Source: Chitinophagaceae bacterium
GTDB lineage: Bacteria; Bacteroidota; Bacteroidia; Chitinophagales; Chitinophagaceae
Direction: 5' to 3'
NCBI GenBank assembly: GCA_025933775.1
Contig: JAICZH010000004.1
Span: forward strand, 1-57,995
DNA: 57,995 bases
The notes beneath the pieces were generated by a model that worked only from the letters and a program-made list of their open reading frames with translations, was not told the DNA's origin and ran no database searches. The first letter of the stretch is position 1, and each line of letters begins with the position of its first letter. Below, piece by piece: positions 4,754-6,549 of the stretch. The position numbers and the translations under genes were made by a program.

Positions 4754-4757
4754 CACG

Positions 4758-4841
4758 TGCGGCAAAGGAGATTCGAACTCCCACACCCTTTCGGGCGCTA
4801 CCACCTCAAAGTAGTGCGTCTACCAGTTTCGCCATCGCCGC
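4758..4841 (-). tRNA. tRNA-Leu, anticodon GAG, intact
   Basis: 84 nt on the minus strand. The acceptor stem GCGGCGA pairs with TTGCCGC (one G-U), with discriminator A at 4758 and no encoded CCA. The anticodon stem CTACT/GGTAG encloses loop TTGAGGT, giving anticodon GAG. A short class-II variable arm (GCGCCCGAAAGGGTGT region) and T-loop TTCGAAT complete a leucine tRNA. A second copy, split by three insertions, lies 336 bp upstream in the same orientation. Confidence 0.93.
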
Positions 4842-4875: not shown

Positions 4876-5133
4876 TTACTTTTCAACTTTAGTTAATGCA
4901 TTTATATTTTTTAGAAATTCTTTTCCAACTCCTGATTTATAATATATTTCTTTTTTCCTCGCTCCTTCTCTAGTAGTAAAAGTTTCAAAATAAATAAGTT
5001 TAAAGGGAATGTATGCTTTTGTCGAACGATTCTTTCCTTTATTGTGTTCACTCACTCTTCTATCTACCATATTCGTCAATCCAACATAAATATAATTTTT
5101 TACTAAACTTTTTATTGCATATACATAAAACAT
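4876..5133 (-). CDS. Small GIY-YIG endonuclease-superfamily protein
   Basis: A protein of 85 residues with the GIY-YIG fold signature: FYVYAIKS at the N terminus (the 'GIY' strand as VYA), YIYVGLT (the 'YIG' strand as YVG), R26 in DRRVSEHNKG, and the later GARKKEIYYKS stretch. This is the stand-alone URI/COG2827 type, a single domain related to the UvrC N-terminus and homing nucleases, common in Bacteroidota and of unknown cellular role. A -7 box ends five bases before the ATG, so its mRNA may be leaderless. The gene lies between two same-strand copies of tRNA-Leu, one disrupted by palindromes. That arrangement suggests a mobile or tRNA-associated origin (inference). Confidence 0.88.
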   Translation of the reverse strand: MFYVYAIKSLVKNYIYVGLTNMVDRRVSEHNKGKNRSTKAYIPFKLIYFETFTTREGARKKEIYYKSGVGKEFLKNINALTKVEK

Positions 5134-5145: not shown

Positions 5146-5190
5146 TTTTTAAAAAAGTTTATTCAATAAAAAGTTTGTGTGGCAAAGGAG

Positions 5191-5210
5191 ACCTCCTGCC
5201 TATAGACAAG
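5191..5210. repeat. Degenerate 20-bp palindromic element in the T-arm of the tRNA copy
   Basis: The sequence acctcctgcctatagacaag occupies the gap between ggcaaaggag and attcgaactc, which are contiguous in the intact tRNA. It shares 14 of 20 positions with the element at 5288-5307, so it is an older, decayed member of the same family. Confidence 0.75.
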
Positions 5211-5250
5211 ATTCGAACTCCCACACCCTTTCGGGCGCTACCACCTCAAA

Positions 5251-5270
5251 CCTGCCTGCCGGCAGGCAGG
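5251..5270. repeat. Perfect 20-bp palindrome in the anticodon arm of the tRNA copy
   Basis: The sequence cctgcctgccggcaggcagg equals its own reverse complement. It is very GC-rich compared with the AT-rich surroundings. It splits the anticodon stem one pair above the loop, precisely between bases that are adjacent in the intact tRNA. Confidence 0.92.
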
Positions 5271-5287
5271 GTAGTGCGTCTACCAGT

Positions 5288-5307
5288 CCTGCCTGCCGGT
5301 AGGCAAG
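5288..5307. repeat. Near-perfect 20-bp palindrome in the D loop of the tRNA copy
   Basis: The sequence cctgcctgccggtaggcaag differs from the perfect element at 5251-5270 at three positions and keeps most self-complementarity. It interrupts the D loop without loss or duplication of tRNA bases. Confidence 0.9.
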
Positions 5308-5325
5308 TTCGCCATTGCCGCAAAT

Positions 5326-5397: not shown

Positions 5398-6549
5398 CTA
5401 TGTATTCAATACAATCCTGAAAGTAGTGCCCTTGTTGGGTTCCGAAGATTTTAAATACAATTGCCCTTTATGAAATTTTTCTATTATTCTTTTTGAAAGA
5501 GAGAGCCCCAACCCCCATCCGCGTTTTTTGGTGGTAAAGCCCGGTTTAAAAATTTTTGATATATTATTTTTATGAATGCCTTTGCCATTATCGGCCACAT
5601 CAATAATTACATGGTCCGGCGATTGTTTAATTTTTATAATTATCGTTCCCTTTCCCTCCATGGCATCTAATGCATTTTTCAAAAGATTTTCAATTACCCA
5701 ATCAAACAATGGCCCTGAGATTTTTGTAATCACGGGCGCTTCCGGCGCTTCTACTAAAAAATTTACTTTATCAGTTGCTCTTCTTTTTATATAAGTTACC
5801 ATTTTTTGAACCTGCTCTGTAATGTTATTATCTTCGAGCTTTGGAGCACTCCCTATTTTACCAAAGCGATCGCTAATAAGTTTTAAGCGATTCACATCTT
5901 TTTCCATTTCTGATGAAATAGGATTAAAATTTTCTTTTTCTTTCAGCATTTCTACCCAACCTTCGAGCGATGAAATAGGCGTGCCTAATTGATGAGCGGT
6001 TTCCTTTGCCATGCCCGCCCACACTTGGTTTTGAGTAGATTTATTCCTAATTGAAATCGCGTATAAAGTAATAATGATAAATAGCGCTACAACCAATAAT
6101 TGCACCATTGGATAATATCTTACCTGCTTCAGCAAATCAGAATCGCCATAATAATATTTATTAATAAGCAACGGCTTATTACTGATTTGAACCGTTATTG
6201 GCGGATGTTGTTTCTTAAATTCTGTAAGTTTTTTCCGAACATAATTGCTATCGTTTTTTACAAGTGTAGAATCAAGATTTAAAACTTCGCCGGACGGTTT
6301 ATCATTTTCATCTGTTTCAATTATTGGTATGTCTTTATTTTCGGAAGTAATGATGTTAGTAAGATCCAACGCAGGTTTTTCGGTAGTTTCAGCGCGGGTT
6401 TTTAAAGCCTGCACCCACACGTTTACTTTTTGCCTTTCTTCAATTGCTATTTTTTTTGCTAAATAATTTGAATAAAAAATAGTGCCGGTAACAATTGCAA
6501 CAGCAATGAGCGTAAGCCATGTTCGTAAATGTAAAAGCGGGCCAAACAT
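5398..6549 (-). CDS. Membrane sensor histidine kinase
   Basis: A protein of 383 residues. One transmembrane segment lies at about 11-29, an extracytoplasmic region at 30-148 and a second transmembrane segment at about 149-166. The dimerisation/phosphoacceptor helix has AHQLGTPISSL (His about 186), followed by the ATPase domain with N-box ENLLKNALDAM, G1 DNGKGI, F-box IFKPGFTTKKRG and G2 GWGLGLSLSK. This is the AHQLGTP class of orthodox kinase found in Bacteroidota. There is no receiver or DNA-binding partner next to it; the next genes on its strand are the tRNA region, so its response regulator is elsewhere. The ligand is unknown. Confidence 0.9.
   Translation of the reverse strand: MFGPLLHLRTWLTLIAVAIVTGTIFYSNYLAKKIAIEERQKVNVWVQALKTRAETTEKPALDLTNIITSENKDIPIIETDENDKPSGEVLNLDSTLVKNDSNYVRKKLTEFKKQHPPITVQISNKPLLINKYYYGDSDLLKQVRYYPMVQLLVVALFIIITLYAISIRNKSTQNQVWAGMAKETAHQLGTPISSLEGWVEMLKEKENFNPISSEMEKDVNRLKLISDRFGKIGSAPKLEDNNITEQVQKMVTYIKRRATDKVNFLVEAPEAPVITKISGPLFDWVIENLLKNALDAMEGKGTIIIKIKQSPDHVIIDVADNGKGIHKNNISKIFKPGFTTKKRGWGLGLSLSKRIIEKFHKGQLYLKSSEPNKGTTFRIVLNT

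Follow-up and report, generated by a model that had tools for sequence, protein, structure and literature searches.

The window analysed here, a stretch of 57,995 nucleotides (nt) from a Chitinophagaceae bacterium (contig JAICZH010000004.1), carries on its minus strand a small GIY-YIG nuclease gene lying between two copies of a tRNA-Leu(GAG) gene, one intact and one interrupted, next to a histidine kinase-like gene (Table 1). An earlier note on this DNA had described the interrupted copy as an 84-nt tRNA gene enlarged by three 20-nt insertions, and this description holds: read from 5321 down to 5178 on the minus strand, the copy equals the neighbouring tRNA-Leu(GAG) plus three insertions of 20 nt. 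The two acceptor-stem differences that it had reported are likewise present, of which G6 to A creates an A-U pair and G71 to A breaks a pair, and the inserts indeed lie within or next to the D, anticodon and T loops, with no target duplication and no base lost. ARAGORN and Rfam both call the neighbour, and neither calls the interrupted copy. Insert 2 lies one base pair below the anticodon loop of the ARAGORN model by our own reading, and was assigned to the stem class in our cloverleaf mapping.

The proposal that the three inserts differ in age needs correction for insert 1. Insert 2 is a perfect palindrome, and insert 3, whose placement is ambiguous, matches the palindrome at 12 of 20 positions at best (5191–5210). 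Insert 1 agrees with it in 18 of 20 positions; it is no decaying copy but has the form of a common subfamily, which occurs at seven places in one relative (G015) among the matches listed. In the window's own genome (G000), the palindrome has 12 places when up to three mismatches are allowed, of which two are at 5178–5321, and a reversed control pattern gave none. The earlier note had overlooked the GIY-YIG ORF between the tRNA copies. The odd tRNA gene looks like the redundant half of an apparent mobile cassette, in which a nuclease gene is enclosed by two tRNA copies.

Table 1. Features of the cassette and its flank in the window.
Feature	Position	Strand	Remarks
Intact tRNA-Leu(GAG)	4757..4841	(-)	ARAGORN; Rfam 46.8 bits
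GIY-YIG endonuclease ORF, 85 aa, one domain	4876..5133	(-)	PF01541, E 2.8e-15
Spare tRNA-Leu(GAG) copy, 84 + 60 nt	5178..5321	(-)	three 20-nt inserts; acceptor changes G6A, G71A
Insert 3, diverged, 20 nt inside span	5189..5211	(-)	3' edge of T loop, nt 70-73
Insert 2, perfect palindrome CCTGCCTGCCGGCAGGCAGG	5251..5270	(-)	after nt 31, anticodon stem-loop edge
Insert 1, CTTGCCTACCGGCAGGCAGG	5288..5307	(-)	D loop, after nt 14
Histidine kinase-like gene	5398..6549	(-)	named by eye from sequence

The encoded protein belongs to the GIY-YIG superfamily by its match to PF01541, by its predicted fold (mean pLDDT 89.1) and by residues Y5, Y16, G18, R26, H30 and E62, which are invariant in nine relatives; we take these Y, Y-x-G, R, H and E residues to be the catalytic residues of the domain. 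The nearest folds were UPF0213 and Slx1, followed by I-TevI, the first match alone falling under an E value of 0.001. Homing enzymes usually carry a separate DNA-binding module, and none was found in the 85-aa protein by domain search or in the predicted structure. Because the enzyme has a single domain without such a module, and because its fold is close to that of the branched-DNA nuclease Slx1, sequence-specific cutting is putative, which counts against the explanation favoured below.

Relatives carry the corresponding empty site. In 13 of 29 tRNA-Leu(GAG) loci of relatives, the kinase gene (44–84% identical to that of the window, and orthologous or similar) was directly followed by one intact tRNA in the same orientation, and no GIY-YIG gene was found in the fetched stretch of these 13 loci. 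At several of them, DNA alignment matched the flanks of the single tRNA with the sequences that border the window's pair of copies on the outside. As for the remaining loci, the tRNA had the opposite orientation in four, the kinase was not found in 11, and one, that of relative G031 (L064), likewise carried a GIY-YIG gene, which counts against the favoured explanation.

We next turn from the locus to the nuclease family, for which a profile (family A1) was built from nine tRNA-linked proteins, palindromes playing no part in the choice of loci. Within the order, 134 of 298 genomes contain family A1; for the phylum, at a stricter cut-off, the figure is 127 of 395. From the matches listed, 89 A1 loci were taken, several genomes giving more than one and the window being among them. 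ARAGORN placed a tRNA within 250 bp of 74 of these 89 loci, compared with 9 of 306 random 230-bp windows and none of 10 Y1 transposase loci. Of these 74 loci, 39 also contain a second version of the adjacent tRNA that is split by an insert of 16–69 nt; the number was 38 when all called tRNAs were excluded, and zero of 74 when one random foreign tRNA per locus served as the query. The other 35 loci yielded no split copy in this automatic test, which counts against the favoured explanation. Beyond the order, a tRNA was present at 25 of 28 loci and a split copy at 16 of the 28, and family A1 nucleases beside a tRNA were also found on contigs of Patescibacteria, Omnitrophota, Elusimicrobiota and Chlorobiota. 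Association with tRNA genes, as in SegB-like homing endonucleases, characterizes these loci. The seeding of A1 from tRNA-linked proteins counts against the favoured explanation; in the unseeded Pfam family, the stretch fetched contained a tRNA at 11 of the 30 best loci. That the cassette resides on phages or plasmids was considered and rejected, as just two weak phage records and one plasmid record matched.

The inserts are diverse in sequence and mostly GC-rich hairpins. The 20-nt palindrome accounts for 12 of the 39 split-copy loci (≤ 4 mismatches), the other types comprising 28-nt CCCGCCCGG...CGGACGGG hairpins, TCCGAAGGACTCCCTTGGA types and hairpins of up to 56 nt. Stability places 37 of 46 distinct inserts within the most stable 5% of same-length random windows from their own locus; the inserts at L353, L354 and L385 are unconvincing as hairpins and count against the favoured explanation. 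As to position, 33 of the 46 fall entirely within a D, anticodon or T loop, 4 are ambiguous and 2 belong to the variable arm; the other 7, insert 2 of the window among them, are in stems and again count against it. The loop share exceeds the 34% expected (binomial p 2e-7, with combinations taken as independent, which related cassettes partly are not). Different hairpins may occupy one and the same site in different genomes: this was seen after nt 22 of tRNA-Arg(TCG) in L427, L435 and L437, and also in tRNA-Arg(CCG) and tRNA-Leu(GAG). L315, a locus from another family, shares with the window the D-loop site in tRNA-Leu(GAG) and, by eye, the anticodon site too. Spare copies upstream of their intact partner have the insert in the D/anticodon part in 22 of 25 cases, and downstream ones in the variable/T part in 16 of 20 (Fisher p 9e-6 for the 5'/3' contrast), a rule that is partly built in because many spare copies are truncated.

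The palindrome was also sought directly in tRNA genes. Scanning GTDB genomes for the palindrome followed by a T-arm motif within 61 nt gave 91 stretches and 99 rows, mostly from Bacteroidota or Patescibacteria, some of them without a recognisable tRNA. Folding of the tRNA-located copies without tRNA alignment (60 groups) returned 0.108 against 0.066 for edges and 0.250 against 0.237 for loops (one-sided Wilcoxon p 0.98 and 0.86 respectively); as this is uninformative, insert positions were read by cloverleaf parsing. A simple parser placed 75 of the 99 rows, related rows being counted separately, and 29 of these fell between nt 21 and 22, 31 and 32 or 38 and 39, that is, at stem-loop edges. 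A small GIY-YIG ORF lay within 1.5 kb in 33 of the 99 rows, on the same strand in all 33 and within 200 nt in 28, compared with none within 1 kb of 107 non-tRNA palindrome loci. The 66 rows without such an ORF within 1.5 kb count against the favoured explanation. An intact copy of the same tRNA was often found a few hundred bases from the interrupted one. Several tRNA-like stretches of one genome contain the palindrome in Patescibacteria REEB16 (L168, L171, L194, L202 and L222); they have no GIY-YIG gene within 1.5 kb of the palindrome, and L202 has one beside another tRNA. In three Chloroflexi genomes (L167, L199 and L208), the palindrome ends ∼8 nt upstream of tRNA-Arg(TCG).

Genome-wide, the palindrome is a dispersed repeat. 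With up to two mismatches it was present in 27 of 59 genomes, the window's own included, at up to 45 copies. In G033, about a dozen palindromes lie within 33 kb (L085-L096, 1.20–1.23 Mb), mostly at one site of a dispersed repeat, between GAGG and AATC. Another dispersed repeat has the palindrome at or near the junction of CATGA and TTTATGG, in several genomes of the same genus (L017, L025, L070, L074, L075, L100, L105, L120, L131, L132 and L134). Palindrome counts correlated weakly with those of Y1_Tnp genes (rho 0.39, p 0.002) and of GIY-YIG genes (rho 0.28, p 0.03) across the 59 genomes, both values being uncorrected for kinship. Y1_Tnp is present in 49 of the 59, the window's own genome included; among the matches listed for G000, G015 and G033, no Y1 gene was seen by eye within 5 kb of a palindrome copy. 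We rejected the GIY-YIG enzyme as mobiliser of the palindrome on account of its weak correlation and its absence within 1 kb of the 107 non-tRNA palindromes.

The nuclease phylogeny tracks the tRNA isotype, not the host family. The tree comprises 100 nuclease domains (77 columns, with many forks unresolved). On it, 25 isotype changes were counted over 97 rows, compared with 59.6 after shuffling (minimum 51 of 300 shufflings), while host family changed 37 times over 73 rows, compared with 40.9 (minimum 36). On 72 of the host-family rows, isotype changed 19 times against 46.1 (minimum 40). One Leu clade unites Bacteroidota, Chlorobiota, Omnitrophota and several Patescibacteria. Tandem arrays occur too, for example in G017 (L288, at G017:C23:203400-210800), which has 15 units of 360 bp with a GIY-YIG gene; the units that were read contain a broken tRNA-Asp and another palindrome, and one intact tRNA-Asp adjoins the array.

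We favour, with moderate confidence, the explanation that a homing-like cassette, mobile and specific for one tRNA isotype, lies in the window and that its hairpins put the nuclease target in the spare tRNA copy out of action. Observation covers the layout of the cassette and its wide occurrence, the empty sites of relatives, the loop location and hairpin character of most inserts, and a nuclease tree that follows isotype; cutting of tRNA genes, homing and immunity are inferred. A tRNA-isotype-specific GIY-YIG cassette would have entered the tRNA-Leu(GAG) gene beside the kinase gene, with the outcome that two tRNA copies, one intact and working and the other spare, flank the nuclease gene. By analogy with the phage enzyme SegB, the nuclease would cut tRNA genes of its own isotype, and GC-rich hairpins, here the genome-common 20-nt palindrome, would occupy those loops of the spare copy that it recognises or cuts; placed at the cut or recognition site, they would protect the spare copy, which would no longer be a target. 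The cassette would presumably home, using homing-like repair to spread to intact tRNA genes of its isotype. A point against this is that its own intact copy keeps the presumed target, so that immunity would depend on the sequence around the gene, on inefficient cutting of the donor or on some other device. A bolder version, which we put forward with considerable reserve, is that the single-domain nuclease, acting in the manner of Slx1 on extruded tRNA arms, may itself place or capture the hairpins at stem-loop junctions of tRNA genes. Such a cassette, if real, would represent a class of mobile element not known before, which duplicates an essential tRNA gene, keeping one copy working and the other hairpin-marked as self against re-cutting. 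The cassette as favoured here would already offer a directly testable case of a homing parasite surviving within an essential gene family, would account for tRNA pseudogenes and for tandem nuclease arrays met in annotated genomes, and would put mobile hairpins to the test as protection marks.

The chief rival, possible but in our judgement rather unlikely, is neutral decay, whereby the redundant copy collects mobile hairpins already present in the genome (REP-like and moved, perhaps, by Y1 enzymes), as nothing selects against them, and the loops reflect a local site preference. Suitable hairpins are indeed dispersed: the palindrome has 12 places in G000, 52 in G015 and 30 in G033 (≤ 3 mismatches), and for a second family of hairpins the numbers of places in three genomes are 9, 3 and 1. 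A base preference exists as well, since T stands just left of the insert in 4 of 72 non-tRNA groups; the kinship-uncorrected correlation with Y1_Tnp and the truncation or mutation of several spare copies also fit. What neutral decay accommodates poorly is the crowding of two or three inserts into one 84-nt copy when ten other places are found genome-wide, the enrichment in loops within tRNAs (33 of 46) when no loop preference is seen elsewhere, and the use of one site by different hairpin sequences in different genomes. It is improbable, in turn, that the hairpins serve to block recombination between the tRNA copies or to silence a harmful second tRNA, which would stabilise the cassette with nuclease recognition playing no part. 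The two copies are direct repeats able to delete the cassette, and the array of 15 units in G017 retains one ARAGORN-intact tRNA, the units read holding a broken copy; however, any mutation would suffice for this purpose, and the recurrence of loops per isotype and the preference for hairpins are left unexplained.

Two further readings go back to the earlier note, which had suggested that the 20-mer targets hairpin loops, had proposed scoring its copies in relatives for hairpin context, and had offered splicing or trimming of the RNA as the alternative. For the scoring, the palindrome was excised in 72 deduplicated non-tRNA context groups, and what remained on either side was folded under DNA parameters. 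The mean hairpin-loop probability at the junction was 0.242, compared with 0.268 in the groups' own flanks; 21 of the 72 groups were above their own background, and 7 of 72 reached at least 0.7, compared with 10% of background positions. Away from tRNAs the copies are therefore scattered with no preference for loops, the outcome that the note had named as refuting its reading, and general hairpin targeting by the 20-mer was rejected. The part of the suggestion that survives is precise, recurrent insertion in tRNA loops, at 33 of 46 inserts against 34% expected. Despite striking single cases (L083, L112 and L127), we thus regard an element that inserts into hairpin loops anywhere as very improbable. 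Hardly credible, finally, is a functional interrupted tRNA from which the hairpins are spliced or trimmed. Some interrupted copies do form a near-perfect cloverleaf outside the insert; however, spare copies have stem mismatches, and an intact full-length tRNA-Arg(TCT) is present in 9 of 10 genomes, the contig of the tenth ending shortly after the interrupted copy. The one candidate for a sole copy, the tRNA-Asn of L193, proved to have a second, intact copy, so that an intact copy exists in 10 of 11 genomes checked and a functional, interrupted sole copy fails for L193 and for the nine tRNA-Arg(TCT) genomes.

Mobile DNA favours tRNA genes as points of entry, and both group I introns and homing endonucleases occur in them. 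The cassette shares with group I introns the tRNA gene as target and the logic of homing, but its inserts (16–69 nt, mostly hairpins) are too short for self-splicing, and the working copy is a separate one. Slx1 and UPF0213 provide the closest solved sequences and folds to the window nuclease. We know of no link between UPF0213 and tRNA genes, and Slx1, judging from the titles of structure entries, differs in working with Slx4 on branched DNA. The REP/RAYT systems, which the available part of their description presents as GTAG- or CGTC-tagged palindromes possibly mobilised by IS200/IS605-like Y1 transposases (PMC3733652), are similar in having short dispersed palindromes. In our palindrome contexts, inspected by eye, the flanks vary and share neither the GTAG nor the CGTC end tag by which REP/RAYT would be recognised. 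In CPR bacteria, insertion sequences with homing endonucleases have been described in rRNA genes (PMC11270868, available in part), so that in Patescibacteria, too, a structural RNA gene houses an endonuclease; as far as that part goes, those insertions concern rRNA genes and not hairpin-bearing tRNA copies (PMC11270868).

The closest parallel is SegB, a free-standing GIY-YIG enzyme of T-even phages. According to the accessible portions of two accounts, SegB cuts inside tRNA genes, its motif RAWTSGAAC being found at 23 of 83 sites (PMC13096335), and it drives the tandem amplification of tRNAs together with its own gene (PMC13096335; T4 review PMC2988022). The reverse complement of this motif, GTTCSAWTY, is by our own derivation the common core of the T arm; in tRNAs bearing the motif, just 8 of 36 inserts interrupt it, which counts against the favoured explanation. 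The window shares with the SegB system a GIY-YIG enzyme encoded beside tRNA genes (PMC13096335, PMC2988022, as available in part). Unlike SegB, the cassette is chromosomal, encodes a single domain of 85 aa, forms lineages that follow the tRNA isotype, and has a second tRNA copy plugged by hairpins. Such plugged copies receive no mention in the accessible portions of the SegB and T4 accounts (PMC13096335, PMC2988022), and no title or abstract opening among those listed in the literature searches, which covered few subscription papers or preprints, described tRNA copies interrupted by hairpins beside a GIY-YIG gene. The cassette looks like a member of the tRNA-linked GIY-YIG homing elements, and its hairpin-plugged copy like the mark of an apparently undescribed parasite lifestyle in essential tRNA genes.
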